DNA of 64,000 nucleotides from Tribonema minus (taxonomy: Eukaryota; Sar; Xanthophyceae; Tribonematales; Tribonemataceae), in the NCBI GenBank assembly GCA_017506865.1, contig JAFCMP010000068.1:434001-498000 (forward strand). The letters are read 5' to 3'. The number at the start of each line of letters is the position of its first letter. Positions within the stretch are counted from its first letter, which is position 1. The notes beneath the pieces are model-generated. The model saw only the letters and a program-made list of their open reading frames with translations, was not told the origin of the DNA and made no database searches. Both the position numbers and the translations under genes were made by a program. Of this stretch, positions 392 to 64,000 are shown one piece after another.

Positions 392-3300
392 CAGTGGTTC
401 TGCGGCGCGCCCGTCGTGCGCGCGCGCGCGCCGCAGTACGTCGTGCCGTTGACCGTGGCGCCGAGCACTGCGCGCTGAAACGCGCGGTTGCTGGACACGA
501 CGGCCGCCGTCAGGTGCGCGTCGAGCGCCTCGCACGCCGCCAGCACCAGCGGCAGCTCGCCGTCGCCGTAGGTGGTGACCACCTGTAATGCAGGTGGGCG
601 CGCTGCGTCAATGTTCATGCGCTGGAGCGATAGGGGGGCACGCCAAACGGTGAGTCAATGTTGATGCGCGAAGTGTGCGTACTGCAAGCGCACATAGCTC
701 TCAAGGCAGGTGAGTATGTAGCTCGCCGTCGCCGTGGGTGGTGACCACCTGGGGCGATGGGGGTGGCGCGCTGAGTCAGTGTTCATGCGCCGAGTGCGTA
801 CCGCAAGCGCGCATAGGTCTCATTGTGGTGGGGAGTATGTAGATTGCCAACGCCGCAGGCGGTGACCACCTGAAGCAAAGGGGCGCGCGCTGAGTCAGTG
901 TTCATGCGCGAAGTGTGCGTATCGCAAGCGCACAGAGCGCTCGAGTAGGTAGTGAGTAGGGGGGCTGAGGTGTGGCGTGCGCAGGACACTGCACCTGTGT
1001 TGATATGCATGGGCGGCGTGTGATTGCAGGTAGCACCAATGCATAGGCTGCGTCGGGCATGCAGTACGGAGGGGGGGAGGGCATTCATTAACGAAGCGTG
1101 GTCTGTCAGACGCGTCCGGCTGTGAGCGTGCCATGCTTTCACTGCAGGTGACGACTGACCGCCTGGCGATGCGCTGCCGGAAACATCGCGCCGCTGCGCC
1201 GCAGAGGCATGCCCGACCGTTGTCGCCGTACATGTACCTCCTGGATAGCCAAACGAAGGCCGCGAGGACTGCACTCTGGTGCCTTGCAATGTGAGAATGG
1301 TGCCACATGTGCGACAGCACTGCGCACGTCAAGCTTGCGAGCACATGGCGCCGGTAACAACACTTGTACAGCGCAACTGCGCCAACTCCGCCATTCAGCA
1401 AGCGCTGGCTCCACAGTATGGGAGCCCACACGCACCACCACGGACGCAGCGAGTCACAGCCTTCTCGGAGACACAAAAAAGAGACACCGTAATTGCCTGC
1501 ATCGGACCGAAGAGCACAGCTGCGCGAAGTCCATCATTCGACAAGTGCCCCCTGCATCCATACACACCACCACGCGCGCAGCGAGCCACGGCTACAGGAC
1601 CTTCGCAAAGACAAGAGAAGGCTTCAAACTCGCCTGCATGGGTCCAAAGATCTCGCGCGTGCACACCGGCAGGTGCTCCGGCTTGAGCAGCTCGCGCAGC
1701 GGCACGCGCACCGCCGTCGGCTCCCACGCGCCGTAGCAGCGCGGTATGCGCGGCGCATCCAGGGGCTTGCCCCCGAACAGCACCTTGCGGCGGATGGCGG
1801 TGCGTGAGAGGGCGCGTAAGAGCACTGGATAATGACTCATTGATGAGCTAGCGGCGTGACTTGAAATCTTTGGTGGCACAGTGGGCGCGCTTGCGCGGCG
1901 CGAGAGGGCGCGTAAGAGCACTAAGTATGCGCGGCGCATCCAGGGGCTGCCCCGAACAGCACCTGGAGTCAGCGGCAAGTGGGGTGCGCGAGAGAGGGCG
2001 CGCAAGGGCACTGGACGATGAGCTAGCGGCGTGGCTTGAAGTCTTTGGTGCAGTGGGCGCGATTGCGTGGCGCGAGAGGGCGCGAATGAGCACTAGGTAT
2101 GCGCGGCGCATCCAGGGGCTTGCCCCCGAATAGCACCTGGAGTCGGCGGCGGGTGTGTGTGTGCGCTAGAGCATTGAATGAGGCCGCGGCACACCAACGT
2201 GCGTCATGGCGCCTGCCGCGGAAAACATGAGCGCGTGCACGCAGCGCGCGATGCGACCCGCGCTGCCAGTGCAATGCACGTTTCGTGAGTATGTCAACCA
2301 CCATCGTACGTGCTCGCAGCACGAGACAACGCGTGCACTACACAGCAGCGAACCGTTGCCGCTCAAGCGTTGACGTAGCTAGCGCGCAGCGTCGGGGCGA
2401 GCGCTTCGTGCGCTCATCCACGCGGATGCACGCAGCACGCAATGGAAGGAGCGCGGGCAGCGCAGTGCACGTTTCCGGTGCGGGAACTGCCCCAGCCCCC
2501 ACCTCTGAGCCGGGTAAACATGATGCACGGTAAACATGATGCATGGGGTGCGCGCAGCCCTAACCCTAACCCTAACCCTAACCCTAACCCTAACCCTAAC
2601 CCTAAGATGCAGGCGGCGCCGGCAGCGCGATACACACGTTTCTGGCGCGGAGCACCAATCGACCCCCCACCTCTGCGCCGGGCACGCACAGCAGCGCGTC
2701 GACGTGCGCCATGGCGCCTGCCGCGGTACACATGAGCACATGGTGCACGCAGCGCGCGATGCAAGCGGCGCTGGCAGCGCGATTCACGTTTGCGGTGCAG
2801 AGCGCTGAACCGAGAACCCACCTCTGCGCCGGGCACGCGCAGCAGCGCGTCGACGTGCGCCATGGCGCGCTCCGTGGTCACGGTCAGCACAGGGCCGACC
2901 GTCAGGTCCTCGAGGCTGCGGCGCATGGCGAGCGTGCGCAGGCGGTCGAGCAGGCCAGCGCGCACCCAGCTGTCGTGCACAAACAGCAGCGACTGCGCGG
3001 AGCACTTCTGGCCGCTGAACGCGTACGCGTCCTGGTCGCACACCCACGCCGCGTAGTCGACCTGCGGCGAGGGGGGGGGGGGGGGGGGAGGGCGGAGGGG
3101 GGGGGGCGGGGAAGGGGGTGGAGTGGGCAGCCGCAGGCAGAGCGTGCGTGGCTCGGGCACTCTCGGTGCTGATGCTAGGTGGCAGTGGCACGGAGAAGAA
3201 GGGAGTGGAGAGCTGCTGCGAAGACTCTGGTGGCGAGCCCCTATCCTTTGCGCGCAGCTGTGCAGGCACCGCTGTAGAGCTACGTGGCACCTCCTTCGGT

Positions 3301-6300
3301 ATGGTCGTGGCGTGATCACGCATCACATGAGCACGCTTCCTCGCGACGGCGCTGTGTCACGACCCCTCGACCGCAACCGTGCGCGCACGCAAAACAGCGC
3401 GCTACGACCCGATCGTCAGCGCGCGACGGCAGCTCCACCCGCCGCCTCTTCGCGCGCGCGCGCATACCAAAACTTCAACTCACATTGCCGACGTCCGGGC
3501 CCAGGATCTTCCAGTCGAGCCCCGCGTCCTCCAGCCGCACGCGCCCCCCAAGCGCCGCGCTGAGCGCCTCCCCCACAGTGCTCGACCCCGTGAACTGCGT
3601 GACGCGTGGGCGCGCCGCCTCCAGCAGCCCCTGCATGACGGCGCCCTCGCAGGCGACCATATCGAGGTCGGCCGGCGGCGCGCCGCACGCGTGCAGCAGG
3701 CGCAGCGCCTGCTCCATGACGACGCTCACGCGGCTGTCGCCCTTGTAGACGACCTGCGGCGGCGCGCGCGCGCGGGTTGGGGCGCATGTCGGGGTCAGGC
3801 GCAACGTCCATGCTCACTACGCGAGCGTCATGGCGCTGCTGACTGGTACGGCAGCTGCAGATGTGGGCAGCGCCGGCGCGCCAGCTGCATGCCATGCATC
3901 ACAGACGCATGTGGCAGCTGGCCCCAGGATCTGACATGTAGGCACTGCTGCACGCACAGAGGTGTTCATAGCGAGTTGAAGTTGCGCTGCGGGCGCAGAC
4001 GGTGCACGGGCGCGGCTCGTTGTCAGCCAGCGCGTGAGGCGACCTGCCGCTCAAAGCCCAGGGGTAGGTACGCTATAGCGGTTGTCAAGGTGCAGGCGCT
4101 GCGCGCGGCGCCGCTCACCTTGTTGCCCATGAAGAGGGCGCCCATGGTCTGCAGAAGCGGTATCTCTGCGGCGCGCGCACACGCGAGGAGCACGGGCAAC
4201 AGCACGAGGGTTCCCTTCAGCGGATGGAGTGATCGTCACAGAGAGCTGGCGAGGCATTGCCGGTCGATGGACATTCGGCGGTGTCTGATGTCCGTCGACA
4301 GCTCCAATATAACGCTGACCATGCAGCAACGATGCTCAGCACGTGGATGTGCCAGGGTGAAGTGATACACTGCGCTCAGCGCTCAGCATACTGCTGCAGC
4401 ACACACAGGGCGCCGCACCTCTCACTGAGCGGGGACTTGAACGGCAAGGCAGCATCGGATGAAGCGCAGTGCTGCATTGATGCAACAATAATTTCTGCAG
4501 TGGCGGTGCTACTCCGATATGCAGTCACTCTACTTCAACCTTCAACTTCATCACTACTTCAACTTTACCCCTCCGCGAGCGCACGCCCGTACTTCAAGTC
4601 GGCACGCAACCCCCACGTCGCCCCCCGCGTCGCTCACCGAGGGGGAAGTTGAACAGCGAGACCACCGCCACGGGCCTGTACGGCCACCACCAGCCGCTGC
4701 TGTGCTGGCCCTGGTGGTCTCCGGGGTCACCGTACTTCAACCTCTGACTTCCATGCAACTTCAACTTCCCCATTGGTGACGCACACCTGTACTTCAAGTC
4801 TGCACGCACCCTCACGTCCCCGACCGCTCACCGAGGGGGAAGTTGAACGGCGAGACCACCGCCACGGGCCCGAACGGCCAGCGCCAGCCGCTGCTGTGCT
4901 GGCCCTGGTGGTCGCCGGGGTCGCTGAACGAGCGCGCAAGGTAGCGCACCTGGTCGCCGCTGAAATTCTCCAGAAACCGCCGCGAGACCACCACCTCGCC
5001 GAGCGCCTGTGGTCAACGAACGCGTTGCACAACGAGTCTCTCTTTGTGTGCGTGAAGGAGCGCTGAAGGGTCATTCTCAAAGAAGATAAGAACTCGGATT
5101 GGTACTTCTGAACTCCCGTGAGACTCACCTAGACTGCCAGTGAATGTCTGCCACAAGCGCTGCGACACTGCCATGCTGCTGGGTTGCTGCCGTAGAGCGC
5201 CGCAGTATTCACTACTGCGCATGGACCGTTTTTGACACTTCAACAACAGGTAGCGTGCCTGGAGCAGCAAATTGACGCTCAACTTGAAGTTGTGCAACAC
5301 CGTTACCGCCCCAGGTGCCTGCGGATAGTGAGCATGAAAAACTTCAACGCAAAACTCGTTGATAAAATGAGCGCTGGAGTGGGCCCCCGTGGGAAAGTGA
5401 GCATGAAAGTCCAACTTGATACTCGGTGATGCAAGCTCATGCCTGCTGTGACACCAGACTCAGCTGTCAATTGCAAATGCAGCTGTAGACATCTGTTGTG
5501 GCCCAGCAGTTTACGGCAACAACGACACAGCGCATGTCGGCCTGATGGCTACTTTCATTGGATGTACCAGACTGCGCCTTCAGAGCGGATGCGCTTCCCT
5601 GCACGGCTGCGACACCGTTCAAGGCAAAGACCACATCATGCGCAACCGTAGATGTGCAGCGACACCGTTGAACGTAAAGGCTACATCGCCTGCAACACGA
5701 GATACCTCCGTCCACGTCTCCACTCCACAGAGGTCACCTAGATAGGCGCAGGGGTACCGACCTGAGCATAGCTTTTGGGGGCGACCCTCTGTATGAGCCG
5801 CGCAAAGAACCGCTCCACCTCTGGCTTCCGCATTTCCGCGCTCGCCTTGGCCGACACCGCTCCGTAGGTGACGTATCTGCGCATGTTGAGAAAAGGGCAG
5901 CTGATGACATCGAGAGCAATTTGCCAGCATTCACGCTCGTGTGGCCAGTGGCGTGCTTCATGCCAATCGCGAAACACCAGCGCAGGCGGGCAAATTAAGC
6001 GCCTGCTGTCTTTACCGATTCCTCTCGTGCAGATGTTCCTCATGCGGTTGCCTGATGGCAAGCAGACGGCTCAACGACATGCCCTGGCGGCGCAGCGGTA
6101 ATCGCCAATGTGTGTCGGTGGACGCGGGAAGTCAACTTTCGTGCACTTCAACTCTTTCAAAGGCGCAGCAGCCCCAATGCAAAGCTCATATGCCCCAGCA
6201 CACCATGAAGGTACGCCACAACCGCGCATATCGGCAACTGCATGCCTGTAGCAATAGGTGCAGTCCATACCGGGCACGCACCGCTCTGGGTTCTTGAACG

Positions 6301-10900: not shown

Positions 10901-13900
10901 CCGCGCACGAGATTTTTGACTTCATATACGAGGACCCCGTGGCGAGCGCCAGCATCGGCCAGGTGAGATGATGTCATGAGGTTGATGGCGATGCTACGCT
11001 TGTAGTAGCTGGTGTGCTAATCGGTCAGGTGAGGCGATGCTCATCGCCGATGGCAGTGCTCTACATGTAGTATTTGGTGTGCTGAGCGTTGCGCAGTGCT
11101 AACCCTAACCGTAACCCTAACCTTAATTGTAGCCCTCAATAGTCACTTCCTTGACGTCTGTGGTCGAGTGAATTGGCCCTGACGGTCGTTGGCTGTCCTG
11201 TGGCATCTTGTGCACGCAACACCTCTGTGGCCAGGTTCCGTGTGCTCGTTGGCATGGTTGAGAGTGTATCAGTAGAGAGGGCGCTGCATGGCATGCACGT
11301 GCAGGGGTAAGGTTATGACTAGCTTTACTTTATCATATTTCTTTGTCAATGTGTGCGCAACTTACTGGCTTGAGGTGCTGAATGCCCTCTCTGTTTGCCG
11401 ACTGCTGGTGCATGTCTCAATTTCCCTCACTCTTGCAGCTCTGTGAATGTACCGATGATCGATGTATCCGTTCAAGCAGTGCTCAAGTCCTCAACCCTCC
11501 CCCCCCCCCTTCCCCCCAGGTGTGCAAAGCGATCGTGAGAGACGGCAAATGTCTCGTCCTCCCTCACTCCTTGCAGGGCTGTGAATGTAACAACGATTCA
11601 TTCATTCCTTCAAGCAGTGCTCAAGCCCTCAAACCCGCCGCTGTTGCCCCCCCCCCCCCCCCCTCCCCCAGGTGTACAAAGCAATAGTGAGGGAGACGGG
11701 TAAGGTGGTGGCGCTCAAGGTACAGCGCCCGGAGGCCTTTAGCAGCGCGGCTGTGGACATGTTCATATTGCGGCGGTTCGCCGCGTGGTTCAAGGAGTGG
11801 AAGAAGCTGCGGAGCAACCTCGTGGGCATCGCCGACGAGTTCGGCGCGCAGGTGCGTCACACTTGAAGATCGATCAGATCATTGTGCCGCCAGTGACAGC
11901 TGGTGTAACTGCCAATGCTCTGCACATGTCTGGACAACAATGTGGTCAAGCTGATGTAGCTGCTGGTGCTGCTCTGCTCTGGACACCAGTATATGCATAC
12001 TTGAAGGAATCATGTATGCATCCATGTCTGATGCAGCAGTGTGAAGCAGTTAGCTTCTGCCCTGCTCTGCAGCCCACAGGCCGTCTTGTCTTGCACTGGC
12101 CCATGAATCCTTGTCAAGTATCAGTATGCCTGCACGCGTCTGCATCGCAGCGCATTCCAGTGCGCTGTTTTGACGCCGTCAGCAGGACCATGGCGCTGGT
12201 TCCACACTTCAACACTAGTGCCATGAACTTAAACATCGTGAACGTCAATACTGCCCTCAGGAGGCGCCACGCTAACTCCTCTCTGCTGCTGCTATTGCGC
12301 AGCTGTTCGGGGAGCTCGACTACGTGCAGGAGGGCAGGAACGCTGTGCGCTTCAAGGAGCTCTACGGCAACATCCCCGGCATCTACGTGCCGGACATATA
12401 CTTTGACCTGACGTCGAGGTGCGCGCGCGCTGCTGAGCAATGACATTGTCGCCTTCAGTGCCTGTTGCGCCCGTCAATTGCATTTCAGTAGCCCGCGGCT
12501 CCGACATGAGTGGTGTGCAGTTTCACGTGCTGACTGTGACATACCCGCAACATCCCCGGCATCTACGTGCCGGACAAATACTTCGACCTGACGTCAAGGT
12601 GCGTGCGCGCTACTGAGCAATGACATTGTAGCCTTCAGTGTCTCTTGCGCCTGCAAATTGCATTCAAGTAGCCCGCGGCCCCACGATGAGTAGTGTGCAA
12701 TCTCACGCGCTGACTGTGATAGCTGCCTAGGCGATGCAGCAGCTGCAGCAAAGTTGAAGTTCCTGCATCTGAACCATGAACACGGCTAGTGGGCCACCGA
12801 AGCTGGACTTTTCCTCTGCCCTTTATCGCACCGCGCACACTCTGCGTGCACACGCTCTGGACGGCGGGCACATGCATCGTTATAAACATGCGTGCACATG
12901 CGCCCCACACACATCTGTACAGTTGAAGTTGAACAATCTATGTCCTTGGTGGGGTTTGCGCATCCTGCCCACCATCATTGAAAACCTGCGTTTTGTGAAG
13001 GGTTGAAAGGGCTCAAGTAGGCATATGACACATGAGGGGGGGGCCTCTCGCTGTTCATCGAGTGCCATGTACTACAACCTATCATCACAACCTATCATCA
13101 TGAGCACCTTCAACACTCAGCAACAATACAATCCCGCTGCGCTCCGCATGCAGGCGCGTGCTCACCATGGAGTGGGTCGACGGCGAAAAGGGCCCGTGGC
13201 TGCAGGACGGCAGGCGCCTGCTCACCGTGGGCCTGCAGTGCTCAGTCATGCAGGTACGTAGGTATACGCGCGCGAAGTTGCGCAACAGAAAACTTCAAAT
13301 CATGAAGTTCCTGCTCACTGTGGGCCTGCAGTGCGAATTCTGGGGGTTGCGTATTTGGGGGGCCTGCATCGCGAACTTTGCACACCTTAGACGACGGAGC
13401 AACGTAGACGACGGAGTCGCGACGGTCCGTCGCGACAGCGCTAGTGAAATCTCTGTCGTGAACCTGTCGCATACGAGTGCTCCACTTGCTGTCGTCTGCA
13501 CGACACCGTCGCACAAGGATGGTGCACTTTCCGCCGTCTGCACGACGTCTGTTGCGCATGGTTGTCGCAGCTCCGTTCCATTCCGTCGAACCAAAAATAA
13601 CGCTTACTTGAGTGATTGCGGCATTGTTGCATAGCTGGCAGCGTATAGACGTATCACAGCCTATGCGTGCCTTTGCGTGCTCATATGATTGTCAACACAT
13701 AACTTCAACTCCGTCAACTGTCCGGTTCGAATCTCCGTCGTGTCTGCACGACACCGTTGACTGCTGCTGCTGGATAATACTGTTGCCGTTGTCAGCACTG
13801 TCGCACACGGTCACACCAGAGTCCGTCGTTATGGACGACTCCGTCATCACACCTCTGTCGGATTAGCCGTCGTGCTGCTCGACTCCGTCACGACGGACCG

Positions 13901-16291: not shown

Positions 16292-16322
<31 letters not shown>

Positions 16323-17092
16323 TGTGTATGCAGTGCGCCTGTGGCTTCCGGCACAGACACGGAAGGCAACACACAGTTTGCGCGTGGTGCAAGAAACGCG
16401 CGCGCGCCATGAAAAAACCCTGGATGACATGCCTTGGTGAGCAGGATAGGCTTACCCATCCTAAGGACTTTGCCTGCCGTGTCCCCCGTGAACGGCAGCG
16501 CTAGCTGCGTCACAGGTGAACGTACACTTCAAATACATCCGGCACCCCCCGTTCGCACAGGCGTGCCACGGGCAACGCGCGAGCCGCCTCAACCGCCAAA
16601 GTGTAAGTGCGTCGCAAGTGAACTCAAACCTCAACATGCGTGCAACACCCCCCGGTTTCGCGCGGGCGACCGACGGGCAGGGCGCGAGCCGTTTCAAAAC
16701 TACCAAAGAGAGTAGGGCACGAGTGAACTCAAACTTTAACATGCATCCGCCACACCCCTGATTTCACGCAGGCGAGCGACAGGCAGGGCGCGAGCCGCCT
16801 CAAGCACCAAATAGTAGGTGCGGTAGGTGCGTCACAAGTGAACTCAAACTTCAACATGCGTCCGTCACCCCCCCCCCGTGTTTGCGCAGGCGAGCGACGG
16901 GCAGGGCGCGAGCCGCCTGAACTTCCAACAGTAGGCATGTCACAGATGAACTCAAACTTCTATCATGCGTCCGTCACCCCCCCCCCCCCCCCCCACTCCC
17001 GCTTTTGCGCAGGCGAGCGACGCGCAGGGCGCGAGCCGCCTCAACTTCCAAAGTTAGTAGGTGCGACGCACGTGAACCCAAACTTCAACATG

Positions 17093-17123
<31 letters not shown>

Positions 17124-20100
17124 CCACGCAGGCGAGTGATGGGCAGGGCGCGAGCCGCCTCAACTTCACGCGGCTGAGCGCGAGCATCAGCGAGCTCAGC
17201 GACGAGCTGCAGTTCCGCGTGCCGCCGTTCTACTCGCTCATCGTGCGCACGCTCACGATACTTGAGGGGCTCGCGCTCGCGGTGGACCCCGACTTCCGCC
17301 TCATCAAGGGCGCGTACCCGTTCATCGCCAAGCAGGTGAGAGAGAGAGAGAGAGAGAGAGAGTGCCGCGCTGTCGTGTGATCAGTAACGCCTGTCTGCGA
17401 GACTGTTGACTGTCGTTGCGTCAAAACGGAGACGGTTGTGGTTGGCTCGAGGCTTTTGAACGTGCAGGCGAGCTAGCGCAGCCGACGGTGACCGTCAAGC
17501 CACAACTGAGGTATGGCGCGGAATAATCAACGAGAGATACTCCACTTACCCCTGCATACCATCGCCATCGCGAAGGGCGCGCAATACGCCTACCTACTGC
17601 ATGTTTGAGGAAGATGATGCGTGCTGCGGGTCGTTCGGCGCCGGGCCGCTCATGCATGCCAGCTGGCGGTGCCATCAGGTTACCCATGTCTCCACGCTCT
17701 TTTGTGGCGGCTGGCTGCATCCATCCCATCGCACAGCGGCAGCCGCCGCCACTGGCGAGACGCCGCGCTCGCGCGCAGTGCTCGACGCCGCGCGCGCCAC
17801 CGGCGCTGAGCGCTATCCATGCATTTGCCACTGTGTTAACGGCCGGCGACAGCACGCGACGCACGCATGAGCTGCGGTGTTGCCTGACCCAAGCCCAAAC
17901 TCTTGCCCGGCATCGCCGCCTAGCGTGGATGCTCGCTAGGTGCGCTCAGTTTCTGGGGCCGCCGCACCCACACACACGGTGATGTGTGGAGCAACAATCT
18001 GGCATCTTGGAAGGGGAGGGCACCACTCCCCTTGTCACTGTGTCCTCACCTCGTTTCATTCTTGTTTCATTCGTGACCGCCCATCGTCGATGTAAGGGCT
18101 GCGTGCCATGGTGCCATCCACTCGGAAGACACAGGCACCCGGCCCGTGGCCCTCCCAAGGCTCCCTGGAGTGCGCACTCACTCACACGTGCAGGGCGCAG
18201 CACCTCCTCCCCTGCCAGAACTGAGTCGTCTGGCGCTGCTGACTCGACCCGCTGAGCATCATCACCGTGCCTGTGCCGCGCGCGCCGCCCGCTTGCAGGT
18301 GCTCAACAGCGACAGCGGCGAGATGCGCAGCCTCATGAAGGCGACGCTCCTCGACAGGCAGGGCAAGATCAAGTGGCGCCGCCTCGAGGAGCTTGTCAGC
18401 ATCGCCGGCGCCGCCAAGGTGAGCGCTGCTGCCGTGCCTGAGCGCTGCTGCAGCTTGAAAGCGCGCCCGCGTTTGTGCTATGTACTTGAAGTAAGCAACG
18501 CACGCTCACGCGACAGGCAGGCGCGGGCAGGCTTAGCGCTGTTGCGGCTATCGCCGGCGCCGCCAAGGTGAGCGCTGTTGCACCTGAGCGCTGCTGCAAC
18601 TTGAAAGTACGCTCGCGCGGGCCGCCCGGGGTCGCGCGCGTTTGTGCTACTTCAAGCAAGCAATGCTCATGCGACAGGCGGGCGCGGTGGGCTTGGCGCT
18701 GTTGCGGCTATCGCCGGCGCCGCCAGAGTGAGTGAGCGCTGCTGCCACGACTGCTGTTCAGTCGTACTTCAAGTAGGTGACGTGCGCGCTGGCAGGCGGG
18801 CGGGGGGGCGCGCACACCGCTGCTGGGGTTGTCCGTCTGACACTTGCTGTTCCGTGACCGCCGGGTCGCTCACCATCTGCAAGTGGCAGTGCACATTGAA
18901 GAGGGCAGCACCTGTTGAAGAGGGCAGCATCTGCTGCTGCTGGCGCTGGGGTCTGGTAGTGCCACCGGTTGTCGTCATTTAGGCAGCAGGTGCCACAATC
19001 CATGCATCTCCTTCCACCAATTCTTTTCCGTTCCCTTGAAGCGTACCACACGCCCTGAGAAGGTGGCAAACGCGCGTTGGGCGCCGAGACGGCTGCTGGC
19101 GTCGACGCTGCCGCAGTGAGATAGCGCATGCGAGCAGGGTCCCGAGTCTGCTGCAGGAGCACAGGCATTGGTGCTGTGTGTAGAGCAGGCCTTGGAGATT
19201 ACGCACGCAACGGGCGTTGCAGAGCTCGTCAGCATCGCCAGTGCTATCAAACCGCCATTGTACTTCTATGCTTGTATGTGCGCCGTGCAGGACGCTGCCC
19301 TTGGCCTGGCTGGGGCCATGCGTGTGATGATCTGCGCTTGCAAATGATGTGTGTTGTTGACACAGGAAAGAGGCCCTGAAAAGTCTTGTCTTTGCAGTTG
19401 CTTTGTTGTTGTTGTGTCATCACGCTGCCTGCACAAGTCTTTGGACGACTGTCGCTGATGGACAAGACACCCAGGAATGATATGCAGAAAATTGCACCAA
19501 GTCACCCTGCAGCGTCACCAGAGCGCTCGTAGCGGAAGTGGAGGCATGAAACTGGCCATCTTCCAGCAGCACTGCAAATGCCCACAATGCACACACGACG
19601 GACATGGCCTTTCATTCGCCCCCCACCTGGCCTCAGCCATCGGAGTGTCAGCAGCAGACTGAAGTCCTTGCCCCGCTTGCACTTCGCTTCCACCCTGCTG
19701 CGAGTATCAGCTGCTGCTGCTGCTGATGCTGCACTTCCTGCCTCTTATTATAATTACTTTGAACGCCTTGCCTCACGCTGAGCACTGGTGCTTCTGTCCT
19801 GCGTTGCCCAGGTCGCCGACACGGACACCCAATTCGATGACCTGCGCCGAGCGCAGAAGCGCAGCGATCTGAGGGTCAAGGTGAGCCGGCCGCGCGCACC
19901 GTGCACAACATTCAGCGAGATGCAGCAGTGCTCAACACTGCAAGATAAAAACAGGAGGGTCAATGCAGAGGGTGCTGCTGCGCGCGCGCACTGCGGATCG
20001 TGGTGGCGATGTCGTTGGCGGCAGTGCTGGGCCCCACTGTTTTGTGCCTGAGCCGTTCTGGTCACGCGGCGCGGTTGCAGCGCGCACGGCACCAGCGGGC

Positions 20101-23100
20101 GCAGCAGAGGTGAAACAGCGCTCAGCATGGGGGGTCCCCTTGCGGACGGGTCAGCTCTGTGGCGCCCTCTCCCTCATTCCATGCCGCCCCCACAACACAG
20201 CGCCCTCTTCACGGGCAGAGCCCTCGTGCTACCGCCGCCTTGCTTCACTCGATGATGAACATCCCAGTCAAAACGGCCCTCATTTCGCGTGCTGCTCATG
20301 CAGCAGCGCTCCCCCTTCACCGCCAGACGCGCCAGACCAGGCTCAGCTCTGTGACACTACATACTGCCGTTAACTTCACGCCTGCGCTCAAGTGGCAACA
20401 GCGCGCGCCTCACCGACACCCTTGTGCGCGCCCATCTCGCCAGTACGAGTTGCAGGATATAGCTTGTTTACTGGTGCAGGCATCAACGCTCAGTAGCCAT
20501 TTGCCACGCGTTGATGACATACAAGGTGTACCGCCCCCAAACTGTACACGGCTTCAACGTCATGTGATTGTGAACCTACTGCCGTGCCACAAGGTTCCAC
20601 GAAGGTTTCTCAGTACTGCGCTCCTGCTGCGCTGCTTCGCGCCTCGTGCCTTCACAGGTCGGGCTGACGGGCGCCAGGCTCAGCTCTGTGGCACCACATA
20701 CTCCCATTACCTTCACGCCGCTCAGGCAGCAGCGCTCATGCAGCAGCAGCAACGCTCGCCTCACCGGAACCCTCATGTGCGTTTCTGCTGCGCTCCTTTG
20801 TGCCTCGCGCCTCCGCAGGTCGGGCTGACGGGCGCGCAGGTGGAGGAGATCCCCAGCGAGGTGACGCTCGACCTGACGCTCGCGATCCTCGACTTCATCC
20901 TCAGCGAGAACGGGCGCTTCCTGCGCGAGCCGCTGATTGACGTGAGTGCCGCCGCCGCGCTGCGCCGCAGTGCGTCGTCGTCACGTTGAACTCGTACACG
21001 AGGAATTGCCGCTATCTGCTTGCCGCGATTTCGCTCCGCTCACTTGGCTCACTGAATGCGTGAGATGGATGTGATCGTTGGAAGGTGTTTGGCGCGGTAT
21101 GTTGCCGCGCCACTGCGCGTCGTCGAGTTGAACTCTGTACACGAGGAATGGCCGCTACCTGCTTGCCGCGACGTCGCCCTGCTCGCCCAAGGCCTGAGTT
21201 GGGTGTGATCGTTGAGGGTGTTCTGCGCAGTTGCCGTTGGGCATGCTGTCGCCAACCGTTAGGGTTAGGGTTAGGGTTAGGGTTAGGGTTAGCCTGACCC
21301 TAACCCATGAATCGTGTACATATGCGCGTGGTCTGCACCGTAGGCGCGCACAGCCTTCTTTCACCATGGGTTAGGGTTAGGGTTAGGGTTAGGGTTATTC
21401 ACCATGTACACATCACGCTGCAGAATGCGGGTTCAATCCCTGGCGTTGGTGAAGTTGCGAGCGGGGCTGTGCACGCACCACGCAGGAGCTGCTGGACACA
21501 GCGGAGGCATTTCTGGGGAGAGCACCAGCGCTGCGCTGGCTTTCGCAACCCTAACCCCAACCCTCACCCTAAATCTAACCCCTCACCTGTATACTCACCG
21601 CCATCTACTCACCGCTTCGCCCCACTCACCTCGTTACCTCAACGCGCAGGAGCTCCTGGACACGGTGGACTCCATCGGCGGTCTCGCCGTCGAGTACGCC
21701 AGCGCCAACTCGCGCGGCCTCATCTCCGCGCCGCAGTCCGCGCCCGACAGGGAGCGCCTCGCCACGCTGTGGAACATCGTTGTTCAGGTATGCTACGTCC
21801 ACTCGTGCGCCCCCCTCCTGTTTCTCGCTGCAAGCGCGGGGCGATGCTTCTTTGTGCTCCGTGCTGACGGTAGCAGCGGAGATGGGGCTTGCCGAGCGCG
21901 GCGCTCATGTGCTGGCTCCAGCAGTGCTCAGCAGCACTGGTGGTTTCAGCATTGCTCAGTACTGGCTGCAGCATTGCTCAGCACTGGCTGCAGCACTGCT
22001 CAGCAGCAGCTTCAGCAGTGCTCAGTGCTGGTTTCAGCGTCGCTCAGCACTGGCTGCAGCATTGCTCAGCAATGGCTCCACGTGCGCTCAGCGCTGGCTC
22101 CGACGGCGCCCTGCTGCTGGGCCAGCTGTATGCGCGCACGCCACGTGAACATTTCTTAGCTCAGTGCCTGGCTTGGAGGAAGAGATGCTGTGATGGCAGT
22201 CCTGGCGTGCTGCACTTCGCTGAGTGCGCTCGTTGACGTGCGCTTGCCCGCTCCGTCATTCCGACTTCATGAGTGGGAATGCATTGAGAGTCACCGTGAT
22301 GAGCACTATCCGCCGCGCAACCGCAGGTGGCGCAGAGTCAGCGCCGGAAACTGGCGGTCGAGGAGCGCGCCAACGGGCTGGCGATCGCGGACGAAGGCCT
22401 TGACTTCCCAACATTGAGGTGAACAACCCCATTTGTCAGTAAAAGCGGCAATGAAGGTGCAATAATCACATCTTCGATGGCAGCGCGCCGTGGTTCAGTG
22501 AGTGGGGCACATGTACATGCAAGCGGGTTCATGCTTGAGGAGCGGGGGCGCAGAGCTCGCACAGTCTGTGTGCTGCTGAGCCGACATGGCACGGGCACAA
22601 GACGAGATCTGCCGCCTGGTTCAATTGTGTACTTGAGAGGGGGAGAGCAAGATTTTTTCCGCATTTTCGCACTATGAGTGAGGTCTGTGGTGCCCAGCCG
22701 CCCTAGAGGCTGGCGCAGCAAACCCTCATGCTGCCACTCGCGTGCTTTTTCATGGGCTCAAAGTCTTGACGGCTGTTCAAGTTCTGGTAGCACACAAAGT
22801 AATACAGCCTGGCACATCGAAGATCGCTTCACCCTGACACGCTGATGGACCCGGCCTCAACTGGGCCTCACCGCCCCCCTCCCTTGTGTGCTCTCGCAAT
22901 GCATGCCTCGCAACGCATGCCTCTCCCTGCAGAGCAACGCGACGCCTTCAAAGGCCCGGTCTCGGCCTCATCGCCCCCCCCCCCTTCCCCCTTCGCTTGC
23001 CCTCGCAACGCATGGCTCGCAACGCAGAACCCCATCTGCTTAGTGTGGGTCCCCCCCGCCAGTCTCGGCCTCCCCCCCCCCCCCCCCACCCCGTTCCTTC

Positions 23101-31544: not shown

Positions 31545-31590
31545 CATCTGGGCTTGTTCGCGCCCTGAGCGAGAATCAATAAAAGTACAT
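31545..31590 (+). repeat. Dispersed conserved 45-bp element, copy 1
   Basis: CATCTGGGCTTGTTCGCGCC followed by CTGAGCGAGAATCAATAAAAGTACA. A short GGGC/GCCC hairpin stands directly before an AATAAA word. The second copy is at 57615-57665. Confidence 0.8.
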
Positions 31591-38169: not shown

Positions 38170-38200
<31 letters not shown>

Positions 38201-41200
38201 GGGGGGGGGGCGCGACATGACGGGGGGAGGAAGGGTGCCATGACGCGTGTGACTGCCGTGTCCGCGGATGGGCCCAAGATTCAGGTGCGCGTGCGCGTAA
38301 AGGGGGGGGGAAGCAGGGTTATGCAAGGCAAATATCATACCTCCTCAATTACTGTAATAATAAAAATATGATGGCAGTCCTCAGCGTGTGCGTGTATGTG
38401 TGTGGGGGGGGGGGGGCGGGCAGGGGGCGCGGGATGAAGGGAGGAGGAAGGGTGCCATGATGTGCGTGTGACTGCTATGTCTATGTTCAGGTGGATGCGT
38501 GCATTGTGCCTCTCTGCTTCAGGCTGTTCAGCACGGATGGAGGTCGGGTCCATGCCTGTGCTAGCCGCTGGGCGCTCGCGCAGTTTGCAGGCCGGCGCCC
38601 GCGCGCTCACTTCTCTGCTCCCTTCGCGCACATCTCACAATGCTCCTCGATCCATGCACGCGCACGTGTGCATGCCTACCCCATCTCAAGCCCCCCCCGC
38701 TCCCCCCCCCCACCCCCATAGGCCTTGTTCCACGCGCAAGTCCTGCCCGTCCTCGCGGACGCCGTCGGCGCCGCCAACGCCGGCCTCCCGCGCCTGCAGG
38801 CGGCCGCCGCGGCGACGCTCACGCACTTCTGCCACCCGGAGCACTGCCGCGTGAGCTGGGCGCTGCCGTACGCGCCGGCGCTGCTGACCTCCCTGCTGGG
38901 GGTCATCCGCTCGCAGGGGGGGGGCGCGGGGCACACTGCGGCGCGGGAGGAAGCGCTCACCGCCGTCGCGCAGCTCGCGCAGGTGCTGGGGCCCGGCTTC
39001 GTGCCGTTCTACGCGCCCATGGCGGATGCGGTCAAGGCGCTCATGGCGGCGGCGCCGGCGGAGGTGCGCCGCAACTGCTCTGTTTATGGCCGTTTCGTGT
39101 GTAATTGTCAGATTGGATTTGCTCTCACGGCCGTCGCGCAGCTCGCGCAGGTGCTGGGGCCCGGCTTCGCGCCGTTCTACGCGCCCATGGCGGATGCGGT
39201 CAAGGCGCTCATGGCGGCGGCGCCGGCGGAGGTGCGCCGAAACTGTTTTGGTTGCGGCCGTTTCGTGCGTAACTGTCAGCTTGAGTTGCGCTCACGGCCG
39301 TCGTGCAGCTCGCGCAGGTGCTGGGCCCTGGCTGAGCGCCGTTCTACGCGCCCATGGCGGACGCGGTCAAGGCGCTCATGGCGGCGGTTGGGTTGCGGCT
39401 GTTTGCAGGTGACTGTCGGCCCGGTTCTGCGTGCGCCATCGCAGCTGCACGTGGCGCACATCGTGCGGTGTGTGTGATAGTGTGTGCGCGCGCAGCGAAC
39501 ATGCGCCTCATGTTATTCGCGCCATGAGCCTAACCCCTTTAACCCTTCATCCTATTTCAACTGCCAACCTGAACCTTATTCCCAACTCTAACCTCCTCAA
39601 CTTCAATCTGAACCTCAGCCAGTAATGATGCTCTGCCACCGTCCATTGCCCGCGGCGCAGCCATCGCGCGGCGGCCTGCTGCACGGCAAGGCACTGGAGG
39701 CGCTCGCGCTCATGGAGCAGGCCATGGCCGATCCTCAACCCTAGTACCAGGCTGACATCTGCAACAAACCGCTCACATCTCTGTGCGAGTGAATTTTGCG
39801 GCTCAGGCGGGATTCGAAGGCTTCAACCCCCAACCTCAAGTTCACTGTCAACTTCCATCTGAACCCCCAACCCTAGCCCCACCACTACTGATGCGCTGCC
39901 ACCTGCACCGCAGCCGTCGCGCGGCGGCCTGCTGCGCGGCAAGGCGCTTGAGGCGCTCGCGCTCATGGGGCAGGCCGTGGGGCTGGAGCTCTTCCGCGCG
40001 GATGCGCACGCCGTGCTACAGGCGCTCGTGTCCACGCAAGGCGCGCTGCAGCCAGGCGACGTGCAGGTGAAGCACGCCAGAGTTTGCTTATAGGGCTGCA
40101 ATGCGCACGAATCATAATGAATGGTACGGTGTGGATCGAACATACGTGGGACGTGTCGATCGCGCGTGTGGTATCTGCGCGTTTCACAGGCGCGTGCCGG
40201 CCGGACGCGTGTGTGCGGCGGGCACGGGCGCGCCCTCACGTACACGCGCGATGCGCTGCGCCGCAGCCGCGCGATGCGCAGGTAGAACGTGCCGCACACA
40301 CGCCCTCCGTTGCACCCCCCACGCCATGTGTGCGTCCATGGTACGGTGGGGTGTGATGTCATGCTCCGCTCTTGTCGCTCGCGGTGACATGCTGCTAGCC
40401 GTGGCTCTCATGAGCCATGCACAGTCCGAGCCTGACAGGCACTTGCTGCGCGCTCGCCGCTCAGGCACCGATACCGCACGCTCGCGGTTTGCCAGCATCC
40501 TTGTCCGCTGCCCGTCATCTGCCCACCAGGTCCTCACGCAGCGGGCACTGCCGCTGGAAACACTGTACAATTTAGCGGCCTCGTCAGCCCCGGTGTCGCT
40601 CCGTCCGCGCACACGCAAGGTCCTCACACACACCCCCTCCCCCCCCCCTCCCCCCCCCCCTGCCCCCCCCCCCCCCCCAGGCGCCCTTCTCGCTCATGGC
40701 GTGCGCGCGCATCGCCGCCGTCCTGCGCGCCGAGTTCCGGCCGTACCTGCCGCACGTCGTGCCGCCGCTCGTCGCCGCGCTGTCAGTGGACTCCGCGGTA
40801 AGGCTGCTCGACGCGCCGGACGCTGCGCTGCCGTCGTCGAGCGCTGCTGCTGCTGCGGCGGCGCAGGGCGTGACCGCCGTGGAGTGCGAGGTGCGCGGCC
40901 TCGGCACGCAGGTCCTCGGCATCAACACGGCGGCGATGCAGGAGAAGAAGGTCGCGCTGCAGGTGCGTGTGGCCGTGGGCATTGCGCCATGACAAAACCG
41001 CAGAGACAGACCAGAGAGAGAGAGAGCACGGGAAAGCGCCGCCCTTTGTGCAGCCTCCGCGTGCGCCTCTCGCTCGAGCGCAGATGAGCGGCACGCGCAC
41101 GTTGCAGTCGTCGTGCCAGACGCCCTCGACGCGCATGAGATACTGCACTTGCCATAGTCGGCGAGGTGATTATTGCTGCACACACGCTTGTCCCCGCCCC

Positions 41201-44200
41201 CCCCCCCCCCCCCCCCCCCCTTCGCGCGCGCGCGCCCGCCCCGGTGCTGATCCATCCGACTATAAACACTTGCACTCATGGCCGCGTTGCCGGCCCTACA
41301 AGTTCAGACCTCGCGCGCGCCTTTCCTCATGCGCTCCGCAGGTGCTGTACCAGTACACGGCGGATCTGGGCGCGGACATGGCTCCGTTTGCGCGCACGCT
41401 GCTGGAGGCAGTGCTCCCCGGCCTCGAGCGCGCCAACGCCGCCGGCGTGCGCGTCGTGTCGGCCGCCGTCGTCCCCAAGCTGCTCGCGGCAGTGCTCGCG
41501 GCGGGCGCCAGGTGCGCTTTCAACGCCACATGGCACTTGCGTAGGCACCTTGAACTAGTGGGGTAGTGGCGAGCGAATCCTAACAACGGTGCGATGAGCG
41601 CCAACGGCGCCGGCGTGCGCGTCGTGTCCGCCGCTGTCGTCACCAAGCTGCTTGCGGCGGCGCTTGCTGCGGGCGCCGGGTGCGCTTCAATGCCGCATGG
41701 TACTCGCGCAAGAGGAGCTATGGATAGGGTTGCCGGAATAGGAAATTGAAGTAAAAAGTTACGGTTAAACTTTACCGCCATAAGGCATGTCGTAAGTCTA
41801 GGGAGGCTTCGGGAAGACCGTAAGTTATGCCGTCGCAAGTTACGCTCAAGTGGCGCAAACTTGCGCTCGAATGCCGCGAATGCTTTCTAGCATGATTTCG
41901 TCAGCACAACAGCAACGAAAGCACGACGAGTCGATGCAAAATCATGTCGAGTCGATGCAGGCGTGGCAGGAAGGCTGTGGACGGTGTTGCCGCCGCCGCG
42001 AGCCCTGTTCTCGTCCCACCGCAACGCCGACGCGCGGAGCGCGGTGCTGGAACGAATATCTGCATCGCAGCGCGCTGCTGCCGTGCCACCTCCTTGTCAG
42101 AGTCTGCTGCTGCAGCCGTTGACAACTGTCTAAACCTCCCTCCTACTCCCCCCGCGCTCCCGCTGCCGCCGCCGCCGCCGCCGGCAGCGCCGACGCGCAG
42201 GCGCTGCTCGACGCTGCCGTGCCCGCGCTCATCGCGGCGATGCGCGCCGCGCCGCGCGACGGCGAGAACGAGGAGACCATGGAGTGCATCTGTGTCGCCG
42301 CAGACGCGCTGTGCGAGTGCCTGCGCCAGGCCCACGAAAGTGGCGGCGGCGGCGGCGGTGGCGGCAGCGGCGGCGGCGGTGGCGGCAGCGGCGGCGGCGG
42401 TGGCGGCAGCGGCGGCGGCGGTGGCGGCGGCGCGATCGCGCTGGCGGACGCGCAGCTGGAGCCGGCGGTGGCGGCGTTCGCGCAGGGGGCGGCGGCAGGG
42501 GCGGAGCGCTGCACGGCGCGCGCCGCCGCTGCTGCCGCCGCCGGCGCCGCCGAGGACGAGGAGGAGGCGGAGGCGCGCGCGGAGTCGCAGGAGCAGTTTG
42601 ACGAGTGAGCGCTGCCGCCGAGTGACAACAGTTGCATTTGGAAAGCACTGATGTGGCGTTGTACTGCCTGCATGACGGTAGGCTTGCGCAGTGCGGCGTT
42701 TGACCAAGCTGCGCATGCTTGTGGTTCGTGGCGCGCAAGCGTTGTGCTCTTGACGTGGACAGCGTGCAGCTGATTGCCGCGCCAAAGATGGTCATTCAAA
42801 GGGCCCACACGGACACACGACGCATGCGCGGAAACCTGCGTGAACAGGAATGCAGTGTTCACCAGGACTCAACGAATACATATGTTTCTTGCACTGCAGG
42901 TGGGAGTACGACATGCTCACGTCCTGCACCGACGGCCTCGGCTGGATCGTCAAGGCGCGCCGCGGCGCCGCCCTCGCGCTCTACGAGGCGCACGCGCTGC
43001 CGACGATGGGCGCGCTGGCGTCGCCGCCGCCGCAAGCAGGCGCCGCCGCCGGCGCTGCCGCCGCCGCGACGCCTGCCTCCCACCGCGCGCTCGCGCTGTG
43101 CTCGTGCATCGACGTCGCGGAGCACTGCGGCGGCGCCGCGCAGCGGCACGCGCCGGCGCTGCTCGCCGCCGCGCGCGCCGCGCTCGCTGACGGCGCCGCC
43201 GCTGATCTGCGCCAGGCGGCGGCGTACGGCTTGGGCGTGCTAGCGGCGCACGGGGGGGAGGCGGTGGCGGCGGGCGTCGCTGCGTGCCTGGAGCCGCTGC
43301 TGGCGGAGGCGGAGCGCGGGTACGCGGCGGCGGCGGCGGGCGACGCGGGGAGCGGCGGCGCTGCGGACAACGCCGTCGCCGCCGCGCTGCGCGTGTGCGT
43401 CCACAGGTGACGGCTGCGCGCCGCCTGCTGCATGCACGAATGTGTGATCAGCTTTCGCACAATGTGATGGGTGACCTGCGCTTCTTTGAGCAGGCTGCGT
43501 CGTGCTCTCGGCGGTGCCGTTGCTTGTGGCGCTGGGCGTCTGCGCGCGCGGGCTGTGCACTGCATATCACCCCCTGTGAATCGTACTGTACACCGCTGTA
43601 CAATAGGGTGCACTGCTGATCAGCTGCTGCGGGCGGCGTTGGAGGTAGTGCCGTCAGACCCTGGGGCAGTGGACACAATGCTCAGCAATGAAGAGACCAG
43701 ATGCCTCGTGCGCATTCTGGGAGTGTATCGCGGAGAACGCTGACGCTAGCACACACAGCTGCAGCACCGCAGCCTGCCTGCTTGTCAGCATACGGAATCG
43801 CCAGGCGTAAAGGGCAGTACGTTTCTCCAACGCGGCGCCACTGGAACCTCCTGGTACCGGTCACTGCCGCAGGGTGCGTGCGTGCGCTGCTGCCCGCACA
43901 GCCGCAGAGTTGTCATCACGGGCCGTATAGCTGCGCACAAATTGTGGCGCACCGCGAGTGCGCCCCGCGCATGGCTGCGATGGCGCCCGTGCGCTGACGC
44001 GAGACGACATGACCGCCGCTCACGGATGCTGCCTTCTCTGCCGCCGCTGCGCAGGGGCGCGGAGGCGGGAGCCGCGCGCGTCGCCGCGGCGATGCCTCGC
44101 ATCCTCGGCTGGCTGCCGCTGCGGCACGACGTCGCGGAGGGCCGCGCGGCGCTGCAGACGGTCGTGGAGCTCGCGGAGAGCAACGCGGCGCTGGTGGCGG

Positions 44201-54317: not shown

Positions 54318-54562
54318 TGTTGCACAGGATCACTATTCAGTTGACGCACGGCTGTGTTTGCGTTTTGATTGCTGTCTGATGTTTACTCATTACTAAAGTC
54401 TATGTGCAACAACACACACAGAGGCTCATATTATCTGTTTGCCAACTTCTCTCTGGAGGTGCGTCACTTCAAGCTCTTGAACCAACAATTTGTAGTTTTG
54501 CTGTGTCACCTGCCAAAACGAGACGCACCGCTACAACAACTGCGCATCTTCCTGCCTTCATT

Positions 54563-56779
54563 ATGCGGTGCGCATCTGCTTTAGTGGTGCTGGTGTGTGT
54601 GGCAAGCGTTGTGCAAGCCTTCACAGCCCCGCGCAGTGCATCGATCAGCCCACGCAGAGCCTGCAGTGCTTGCACCTTCAACGGCGTCAGAGCACCGGCA
54701 GTATGGAGACTGGCTGCAGTGGAGGAAAAGGACTCGGAGGCCGCGGAAAAGCAGGAGCAGCAGGAGGAGCCGGCGAGTGTAGATGAGCCTGTTGCGCCTC
54801 CTGCAGTTGACCTGATGAAGGTGGGAAATGGAACGCGGCTCGGCAATGTTTTTCTTTGTTGTTGCTCGGCGCTGTGGCTGACCTAACCATTGTGCTACAT
54901 TTGTGAAATTCAAAATAACTACGAGGTTGCACTGCAGTTAGCCTGCAACAAGAATTTTGCATCGCTTGGCCTCGCAGTTTAAACTTGGCACAACCCAAAC
55001 AATTACAAGCTACAGGTGCACTGGTTGTTTTTTTCAGCGACTGCATGTTCAGCTTTTGCCATGCATTCTAGTTGTGGCTGAGTATCAACCTGCAGTGCAA
55101 AGTGACTGTGGTGCGGTATGTGTCAACAGCCTTGTTGGGTTTGCACGGCTTGTCTCTGTAGTCTCGGTGTGCCTTCTAATGCGCAACGTATCAAAGGGAC
55201 CACATGTGCACACGCTGTTGTGGCGCGAAATATCGAGTGCGAAGCACCAGACTATGAGAAGCGACACCCCTGTTTCATTGACAGGTGTTGTCGGTATGAT
55301 GAGCATCAATCCCGGGTTCCGATAGAAGTACTTTGTTGTATGATAGCTGCCGAGCAGTCAGCAGCACAGCTGTGCTATTGTGCGGCAGCTGTGTCACTAC
55401 CTCAGCTTCAGTCGTTGGCGCTCTGCGTCTGGCTCAATGGCACATCACAACATGCACCTGTGTGTCACGACTGACCCAGTCGCCCTGTCAAATACGACGA
55501 ACGACGTGTATTTCACCAGAAGAGCCAGAGAGAGAGAGATAATCTCATCATATCTGCTACATGTTTTTGCACCCAATGTGCTGCACCCTCATGCCACTAC
55601 CACATCTTTGTGAAGACGTTGTCTCCGTTGAAGTGTCAGTGATGTTGCTGTTGCTGTGCTGTCCGCATGGGGCCGCTTCTCACCGTGCAAACACGCCGCC
55701 TACACCTGCTTCAAGCCCGTCTTGAGGATCCCTGCTGCGGATCAGACGTGGAGTTGACGCCAATGGCGCTTTCGCTTTGTGCCTGCTGCGTGCTTGCTGC
55801 TGCAGAGCGTCAACTTCCAGGCACCGGCCCCCGCGCCCGCAGAGGAGTCTGACGCCGTGACAAAGGCAAGTGACAGGCGTGCGCAGGCCGTGAGCTCACC
55901 GTGAAGTTCGTCAAGGTGGCGCTGCTCCAAGTAGTGACATGCCACTGCGCCACGCAGCGTCACCTGCGCACGTCTTCGATGGAGCGCTGTCTCTCCCACG
56001 CACAGAAAGGTTGCGAGGAGGTACTGAAGTAGCGGCCTACTTCAGAAGTATGAGAGTGGTGAATGCTCTGTCATGTGGCTCTTCCTTGGCACACTCGAAA
56101 AGGCGTTCACATGCAAAATGCCATTGCAGCTGGGCCTCTCGCCACCGCGCTGATTCCTGTCTGCCGTCGGCGTCTGTAGCCCAGTCCCCCTTAACACGCC
56201 ACTCACGGCCTGGGGTGATGCTCATCTGTCCATGTCAGAACGTCTGCAATCCTGCCGTTGCGCTGATGGGCCGGGCGTATCATCAGATGCATTGAAGCGC
56301 CGAGTCAGAGCAGGTGCGAACGCAACGTAATGCGTCCATACTATGCCATCAGAATCAGGGTTACTGTTAGGGTAAGGGCGTCACCCGTGTCGTCGTTCGC
56401 GCTGCCAGCACAATGGATTCACTGAAGCGCCAAATCCGGTCAAATGAATGTCACGCGAATCTGACGATTGTCTGCGAAACTGCCGTTTTGCTTGTGCAGG
56501 TGCACGTCCTCGCGTACATCGTTCTCTCCCTGGTGCCATTAATGAAGCTGCATTGAAGCGCCAAGTCAAGGCCGCTTTGAAGCTTTCAACGATGTCCCCA
56601 TCTGACTTCACCATTGCGTCTGCGATTTTGCCCGTGCCTTTTCGCGTGCGCAGGCGCGCGTCCTCGTGTACATTGTCCTCTCCCTGGTGCCGATCCTGTT
56701 CCTCCTGCCGCTCATGTCGTCCAAGGAGATGATCCCCCTTGACCCCGAGCTCCTGCAGCAGCAGATGCAGCAGCGATGA
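54563..56779 (+). CDS. Small plastid-targeted membrane protein, 3 exons, 147 aa
   Basis: Exons: 54563-54820, 55806-55865, 56654-56779. The N-terminus is a textbook bipartite leader for a complex plastid: signal peptide CASALVVLVCVASVVQA, an ASAFAP-like VQAFTAP at the cleavage site, then a Ser/Arg-rich transit stretch. The middle is acidic and Gln/Pro-rich; the C-terminal exon encodes one hydrophobic segment (VLVYIVLSLVPILFLLPLM) and a short polar tail ending QQQMQQR. It is probably a single-pass thylakoid or envelope protein; I do not recognise the family. The intron after exon 2 has a consensus GC donor (AAAG|GCAAGT). A decoy copy of the exon-3 acceptor lies about 150 bp upstream of the real one. 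Confidence 0.78.
56425..56700 (+). repeat. Tandem duplication of the acceptor and exon-3 start of the plastid membrane protein
   Basis: Unit 1 (about 56427-56540) and unit 2 (about 56557-56700) both hold gaagcgccaa(a/g)tc, cgatttt/gccgttttg, GTGCAG/GTGCGCAG and an exon-like start. The decoy reads VHVLAYIVLSLVP and then diverges; the authentic exon at 56654 reads ARVLVYIVLSLVP. Confidence 0.92.
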
Positions 56780-58596: not shown

Positions 58597-58627
<31 letters not shown>

Positions 58628-63500: not shown

Positions 63501-64000
63501 GGCGCAGCGGGGGAGCCGCCGATCGCCGCCGCGGCTCTGACGGCGGCGCTGCCGCCGCCGGTGGCCGCGGCCGTGCTGCGCCGCGCGCTGCGCGATCTGC
63601 AGTGCCTCCGCTACGGCTACGTGCTCGACGGCACACCCGCGGCAGCGCTGCTTGCGCGCATCTGCTTCGGAACCAGCGCCGCCGCCGCCGCCGCCGCTGC
63701 CGCCGCTGCCACAGAGTCCAGCGGCAGCAGCAGCGGCGGCGGCAGCAGCGGCGGCGGCGACCTGGATCCAGACCTCGCTCCAGCGCACATAGTCTACCTG
63801 CACGCGACCAAAGCGGAGCTGCTCGCGCGGTGGGACGCCGTGGCGGCGGCAGCGCAGCCTCCGGCGGGCACCGACAAGGCAAGCACGGCGGTGGCGGCGG
63901 CGGCGGCGGCGGCCATTGCCGCCGCGCGCGCTGCGTACGTCCCTCAGCTGGACGTGTACCTGGAGGACGCAGCGCTAGACAGCAGCGCTCAGCAACCGGG
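60521..64000 (+). CDS. AK7: Adenylate kinase 7-like protein (epimerase-like + adenylate kinase), 4 exons visible, runs off the edge
   Basis: Exons: 60521-61294, 61997-62282, 62645-63017, 63493->64000. The N-terminal half is the NAD(P)-binding epimerase-like domain of AK7: FVGGVDTFIGRNIAAHLQQR, LVLVSNFVTWGR, GVPYGQGEGPLASLFRDAW and PLAHIDDICEAVAGLL. Exon 3 begins the adenylate kinase domain, but the P-loop is degenerate: LAPPCAGASAA stands where GPPxxGKS is expected, so the ATP-binding Lys is lost. Exon 4 has RYGYVLDGTPAAA (normally GY-LDGFP) and IVYLHATKAELLARW. AK7 proteins maintain nucleotide balance in cilia. The intron after exon 3 has a GC donor (GCAG|GCAAGC) that restores phase exactly. 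Exon 2 carries one surplus base in a G-run near 62203-62224, which shifts the frame before RALAVKAQFLRERRIE. The C-terminal part lies outside the window. Confidence 0.88.

Follow-up and report, generated by a model that had tools for sequence, protein, structure and literature searches.

Tribonema minus is a yellow-green alga (a xanthophyte), and a stretch of 64,000 nucleotides of its genome (contig C68, 434001-498000; hereafter the window, from an assembly of 158 Mb in 554 contigs) raises the question of why sequence spanning an exon boundary should recur inside the adjoining intron. An initial annotation of the window described such arrays at about 18 of 48 introns, with copies of differing age, and took them to be a property of the genome. 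Here we ask whether the junction copies are real and widespread, whether junctions are favoured over the rest of the intron, and how such copies might arise and persist.

The genes named in the window are an aldehyde dehydrogenase 12-like (ALDH12-like) gene, an ABC1-family kinase whose product is 98% identical to a deposited Tribonema minus protein at 92% query coverage, and an importin-5-like gene. Actin-like and dual-specificity-phosphatase fragments are also present, and one further gene has RING-type matches slightly below the Pfam cut-offs. Introns were delimited with a gene finder that took the ABC1 and importin exons as its seed and was then retrained on the window plus 16 further loci (L002-L017); unsupervised training was dropped, having drifted toward many tiny exons. 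With a strict intron cost the seeded model recovered 16/16 ABC1 introns, these being part of the training, and the ABC1 exons are confirmed by the deposited ABC1 protein P0001 (16 introns). The ALDH model, with 8 exons, aligned without gaps to the solved aldehyde dehydrogenase 12 structure over 429 residues. For a helicase gene outside the training set (L018), 7/8 introns matched the deposited protein P0123 up to split codons, and the acceptor of the remaining intron was off by 15 bp. Independent checks of the authentic exons were provided by the importin-5 structure for the importin-5-like gene, and by P0123 together with eight homologues for the helicase. The finder misses some genes, and two of its 41 window introns (24390-26426 and 53641-56653) appear to fuse adjacent genes. 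Prior to counting, ten predicted exons that duplicated a neighbouring one were absorbed into introns, and a frame-broken gap within an importin exon was treated as exon. Two features of the gene models can be recorded alongside: the conserved importin exon 37808-38136 has an apparent one-base frame break, which the deposited model bypasses with an intron of ~80 bp, and the ABC1 intron 10284-10830 has a GC donor (GCGAGC), with which the deposited protein agrees.

Junction copies were counted in 254 kb of sequence, ~190 kb of it outside the window. Two of the loci L002-L017 flank the window and the others come from arbitrary places on 14 contigs; three additional loci (L018-L020) were selected for DEAD-helicase exons. 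After exclusion of 5 introns under 150 bp, 114 of the 119 complete introns were retained. A copy was called when an 80-mer over the junction aligned to its own intron with a score of at least 26 and the alignment crossed the junction. By this measure 41/114 introns contained copies of their own junctions (acceptor 22/114, donor 27/114, both 8), a count that supersedes a preliminary one of 14 acceptor and 15 donor cases among 95 introns, made without L018-L020 and with only the window decoy exons merged. The same queries aligned to the introns of other loci, as a chance control, gave 1/1140 for acceptors and 2/1140 for donors.

Within the window the strict count, restricted to introns of 150 bp or more, was 12/41 (7 with acceptor copies, 7 with donor copies, 2 of these with both), or 13/41 when an acceptor copy at 23110-23343, seen solely by its exon part, was included (Table 1). 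The arrays thus lie where they had been placed initially, with up to six copies including the authentic one (16506-17167), at fewer introns than the ~18/48 first proposed. Outside the window, 29/73 introns carried copies (16/53 in L002-L017 and 13/20 in the three DEAD-helicase loci), against one or two in 1140 in the control, which bears out the suggestion of a genome-wide property. Variation between loci was somewhat above chance (Monte Carlo p = 0.02), and among loci with several introns arrays were found in every sampled class, L008 and L016 being the exceptions. These counts confirm that the splice-junction copies are real and not peculiar to the window. The general difficulty of assembling repeats is the one consideration in favour of an assembly artefact, which is extremely improbable given that divergence between copies is ~7% in the exon part and 14% in the intron part, that contigs extend up to 2.45 Mb, and that the arrays recur across the sampled loci.

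Table 1. Junction arrays and interstitial telomere-like runs in the window (positions are those of the window)
Feature	Positions	Strand	Splice sites and remarks
ALDH12-like acceptor array	554..958	-	authentic exon start 582; decoy acceptors 748, 869, both with AG
ALDH12-like acceptor array	1743..2179	-	authentic exon start 1783; decoys 1962, 2136
ALDH12-like donor array	2197..2894	-	authentic intron start 2821; decoys 2670, 2502; telomere-repeat insertion 2558-2605
ALDH12-like donor array	4425..4922	-	authentic intron start 4831; decoys 4637, 4425
ABC1 kinase acceptor array	11412..11699	+	authentic exon start 11672; decoy 11520
ABC1 kinase donor array	12367..12719	+	unit 180 bp; authentic intron start 12419; decoy 12599
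ABC1 kinase acceptor array, six copies	16506..17167	+	authentic exon start 17132, the last; decoys 16561, 16666 (GG, not AG), 16772, 16890, 17013
ABC1 kinase donor array	18401..18746	+	authentic intron start 18419; decoys 18568, 18729 (18729: GT lost)
ABC1 kinase acceptor array	20617..20840	+	authentic exon start 20819; decoy 20658
ABC1 kinase acceptor-side copy	23110..23343	+	exon part 43 bp, 93%; authentic exon start 23305; below strict count
Importin-5-like donor array	38119..38314	+	authentic intron start 38137; decoy 38285
Importin-5-like donor array, three copies	38953..39387	+	unit 168 bp; authentic intron start 39064; decoy 39232
Importin-5-like acceptor array	39619..39980	+	authentic exon start 39914; decoy 39661
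Importin-5-like donor array	41430..41708	+	authentic intron start 41512; decoy 41680
Acceptor array, small gene downstream of RING gene	56481..56691	+	exon start 56654; decoy 56500; upstream part of intron model doubtful
Interstitial TTAGGG/CCCTAA runs, modelled introns	2558-2605, 14473-14509, 21258-21292, 21368-21397, 26095-26131		

Across the sample, 79 arrays were delimited in 56/114 introns. Many are head-to-tail with a gap near zero, and in the remaining ones a diverged stretch separates the recognised parts. The unit has a median length of 145 bp (10th-90th percentile 78-249), with no frame bias (lengths modulo 3 divide 21/27/31 of 79). The best repeat-pair identity per array runs from ~69 to 97%, and their ages therefore differ, as had been described. 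The copied exon part is short, with medians of 41 bp on the acceptor side (24 cases) and 58 bp on the donor side (29 cases); a 78-bp repeat in L016, placed in exon, accounts for three large values. No intron copy was found for 40-mers starting at least 60 bp into the downstream exon (0/81 at 60 bp), and longer exon copies may be selected against, as they might be spliced in.

Repeat units that are alike in size and recur in many introns could also be the mark of a dispersed mobile element or introner at junctions, a reading that has next to no probability here because the arrays of different introns are unrelated. Junction-centred 80-mers revealed no dispersed sequence shared over introns beyond the one or two cross-locus matches in 1140 noted above, and only 4/46 same-strand self-matches in the window, telomeric runs aside, join distant places. 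The arrays share with introners, as described in the accessible part of one account (PMC9860276), an effect on introns genome-wide, here without an element common to the introns. Among the few distant repeats of the window is a 48-bp sequence with an AATAAA-like end, present at 31543-31589 and, 26 kb away, at 57620-57667 with 92% identity.

The order of copies was as initially reported. Acceptor decoys lie upstream, with the authentic acceptor last, and donor decoys downstream, with the authentic donor first; the wrong side held acceptor copies (downstream) in 3/114 and donor copies (upstream) in 5/114 introns, against 22 and 27 on the expected side. The authentic pair consequently encloses the shortest exon. 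This 'first donor, last acceptor' rule is expected from survivorship, because the other choice alters the mRNA. Where an intron has both kinds of copy (8/8 cases), the decoy donor comes first and the decoy acceptor after it, and the two kinds therefore represent two separate duplication events; duplication of a whole intron was rejected on the same order. Poly-C tracts were likewise rejected as a cause of the arrays, a C-run of at least 7 being found in 4/22 acceptors with and 28/92 without arrays. As a separate feature of composition, G exceeds C toward the donor and C exceeds G toward the acceptor at 75-200 bp from the ends of the sampled introns.

The copies look neutral in their pattern of decay. 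In 26 junction alignments, divergence was 6.7% in exon-derived and 13.9% in intron-derived sequence, with 11 gap openings per 1350 bases of exon part and 91 per 2331 bases of intron part; in a wider set of 44 arrays, divergence was 8.3% and 16.9%, respectively. Differences at codon positions 1, 2 and 3 numbered 26, 25 and 39 (of ~450 each) in the 26 alignments and 52, 50 and 92 (of ~780 each) in the 44 arrays. Two constrained copies would be expected to show a third-position excess well above this 1.5-1.8; the divergence fits a pair in which one copy is constrained and the other free, and the units lack frame bias. Tandem exon duplication, as with mutually exclusive exons, also repeats exon sequence in an intron, whereas the copy here is a partial exon with one splice site, decaying as if neutral.

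The same data bear on whether selection retains the extra sites for alternative splicing, be it as splice sites or as exons. Most decoys do keep their dinucleotide (AG in 26/32, GT in 36/41), whereas AG and GT elsewhere in these alignments are kept at 0.70 and 0.67, respectively. Identity at decoy dinucleotides (0.90 for 39 acceptor decoys, 0.89 for 51 donor decoys) also exceeds that of flanking intron (0.72 and 0.82; p = 0.0008 and 0.08). However, the adjoining exon copy has the same level of identity (0.88), which is the outcome predicted if only the authentic site is constrained, and we read the better-kept decoy dinucleotides as probably reflecting that constraint; weak constraint on the decoys themselves may also operate. 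When purifying selection on the copies was assessed, both codon-position and splice-dinucleotide patterns fitted an unconstrained copy. Together with the low third-position excess and the absence of frame bias, this makes retention by selection improbable.

Annotated proteins point both ways on this question. The deposited Tribonema minus importin P0121 includes 39142-39231, 39661-39741 and 41597-41680 as exons, all three being decoy copies, which would favour their use. By contrast, the deposited helicase and its eight homologues omit the helicase decoys. The importin homologue P0122 is without the first two decoy exons, and where the third would be its low-complexity sequence is dissimilar; the decoy-free importin model can be aligned with the importin-5 structure through both introns. 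Judged from these alignments, the decoy exons of P0121 are probably a mis-annotation.

That copies should be commoner at junctions than elsewhere in introns was part of the original proposal, and it held in most of the tests applied, if not in every one. Intron-only 50-mers were compared at the lowest threshold between junction-adjacent and interior positions, intergenic sequence and the introns of other loci. The last 50 intron bp had an upstream copy in 15/84 cases (interior positions 250/3474), and the first 50 a downstream copy in 19/94 (interior 227/3474), against backgrounds of 16/1317 for intergenic sequence and 1/3026 for other loci's introns. At the strictest threshold, the donor side stood at 9/94 versus 2.2% in the interior and the acceptor side at 0/84 versus 2.6%. 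Profiles of 40-mers reached their maximum at the junction, where 40-mers straddle it (donor 27/105, acceptor 21/101). For wholly intronic 40-mers, the duplication ratio of those adjoining the junction to those in the interior was 2.40 (bootstrap 95% 1.64-3.41), with 2.26 in the window, 2.63 in L002-L017 and 2.06 in the DEAD loci. Simulated uniform duplication with neutral decay, at two rates, gave mean ratios of 0.85 and 1.02, with a maximum of 1.35 in 32 runs. At offsets of 20-60 bp, free of splice-site bases, the real ratio was 3.29, compared with simulated means of 0.80 and 0.99 and a maximum of 1.37. Interior positions were duplicated more often in the simulations (0.14 and 0.21) than in the real introns (0.065); the simulation therefore serves as a null for the ratio and does not fit the data.

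Array placement gave a milder picture. While 41 arrays cross a junction versus 19.7 +/- 3.5 expected, this excess is inflated because exon parts decay slowly; with exons masked, 22/54 arrays abut a junction versus 15.9 +/- 3.1. Repeat coverage near junctions has a shoulder of 0.14-0.26 within 300 bp and no spike, and of the youngest arrays, at 90% identity or more, 4/14 are at junctions versus 2.4 expected. The mild masked excess, the youngest arrays and the missing acceptor excess at the strictest threshold are what one would see if duplication were uniform over genes and junctions were no hot spot. Exonic duplications would then be purged, intronic ones and those over one junction would survive, and exon conservation would prolong the visibility of the latter. 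A unit of ~145 bp in introns of ~630 bp must also often hit a junction. Uniform duplication does not, however, account for intronic k-mers that are free of exon constraint and peak at junctions in all three subsets, with ratios beyond any simulated. Weighing the intron-only profile and its simulation highest, we consider uniform duplication possible but rather unlikely; the junction excess is of uncertain size, and firmer for donors than for acceptors.

Array-bearing introns are also longer than others (medians of 1044 versus 663 bp with and without an acceptor array, and 886 versus 679 bp for donor arrays), in line with the intron growth that the initial annotation had envisaged. Intron gain by tandem duplication fared differently. 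If introns were created by duplication of AGGT-bearing exon sequence, a copy of the upstream exon end should lie at the intron end and one of the downstream exon start at the intron start. This signature was present in 1/118 introns (null 0/1180 with the threshold unchanged), and that intron (L006 8157-8280) is read as a false one, a donor array miscalled as an intron. With the signature missing in 117/118, and with the exon copies in arrays bringing along old intron flank, creation of these introns by duplication is very improbable. The arrays have in common with tandem-genomic-duplication intron gain, as set out in the accessible parts of published accounts (PMC3443670, PMC2891723, PMC4974935), duplication near an exon, splicing that hides the extra sequence and AG|G-type sites. 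In the arrays, by contrast, duplication acts on a junction that is already there and lengthens its intron without creating a new one.

Clues to the source of the duplications come from telomere-like runs. Array density per kb is 0.24 for intron-only arrays, 0.55 when junction arrays are included, and 0.12 in intergenic sequence as modelled. Runs of at least two exact TTAGGG units number 14 in introns (134.6 kb), 1 in intergenic sequence (84.8 kb) and 0 in exons (34.6 kb), and the telomeric arrangement had 216 matches versus 0-2 for nine other arrangements of the same letters. Eight CCCTAA units (2558-2605) interrupt one donor-array copy, with a few bases lost, and the sister copy is uninterrupted; another run, 14473-14509, begins 9 bp past the donor at 14464. 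In mammals, interstitial telomeric runs have been read as insertions made during double-strand-break repair, as far as the accessible parts of two reports go (PMC2246262, PMC7215372); the short internal TTAGGG runs seen here, one inside an array copy, are similar, in an alga and mostly in introns. Staggered-break fill-in in mammalian cells yields tandem duplications (PMC8355091, in the part accessible) and is a plausible source, sharing the head-to-tail copy of one local segment. The duplications in that system are mostly shorter, with insertions <100 bp, whereas here the unit has a median of 145 bp and the duplications favour exon edges. Head-to-tail adjacency, which break-repair tandem duplication predicts, is a feature of the arrays, and we infer that break repair makes them.

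On balance, we lean toward the view that short tandem duplications recur in Tribonema minus genes with a preference for exon-intron boundaries, that break repair most likely generates them as a by-product, and that splicing hides the copies, which then decay neutrally. Tandem duplications of ~100-200 bp would arise repeatedly, break repair being their most likely origin. One that spans a single junction would give the intron a second splice site and a piece of exon. With the first donor joined to the last acceptor, the extra copy would be removed and the mRNA left unchanged, and the duplication would persist because of this; the spliceosome would be picking the shortest exon, presumably through exon definition. 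The copy would then decay neutrally, the intron would remain ~150 bp longer, and the cycle could repeat. The boundary preference might, as one guess, reflect nicks that accompany transcription or splicing. More tentatively, exon-intron boundaries could be mutational hot spots at which tandem duplications of nucleosome size arise, probably via transcription- or splicing-linked breaks. Splicing would shelter the products, introns would grow in ~150-bp steps from the ends inward, and their interiors would to a considerable extent be the decayed edges of their own exons.

A published account of such junction arrays was not found in the accessible parts of the open-licence literature. For annotation, the arrays matter in that gene prediction mistakes decoy fragments for exons, as our own finder did ten times and as happened in the deposited importin, and other public Tribonema minus protein models may thus hold spurious repeats. 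For the biology of the alga, the arrays offer a countable route to longer introns. Decoys of graded age beside authentic sites in the same gene form a natural series for studying how the spliceosome chooses among near-identical sites, and exon edges may be marked by the arrays as frequent sites of DNA damage.
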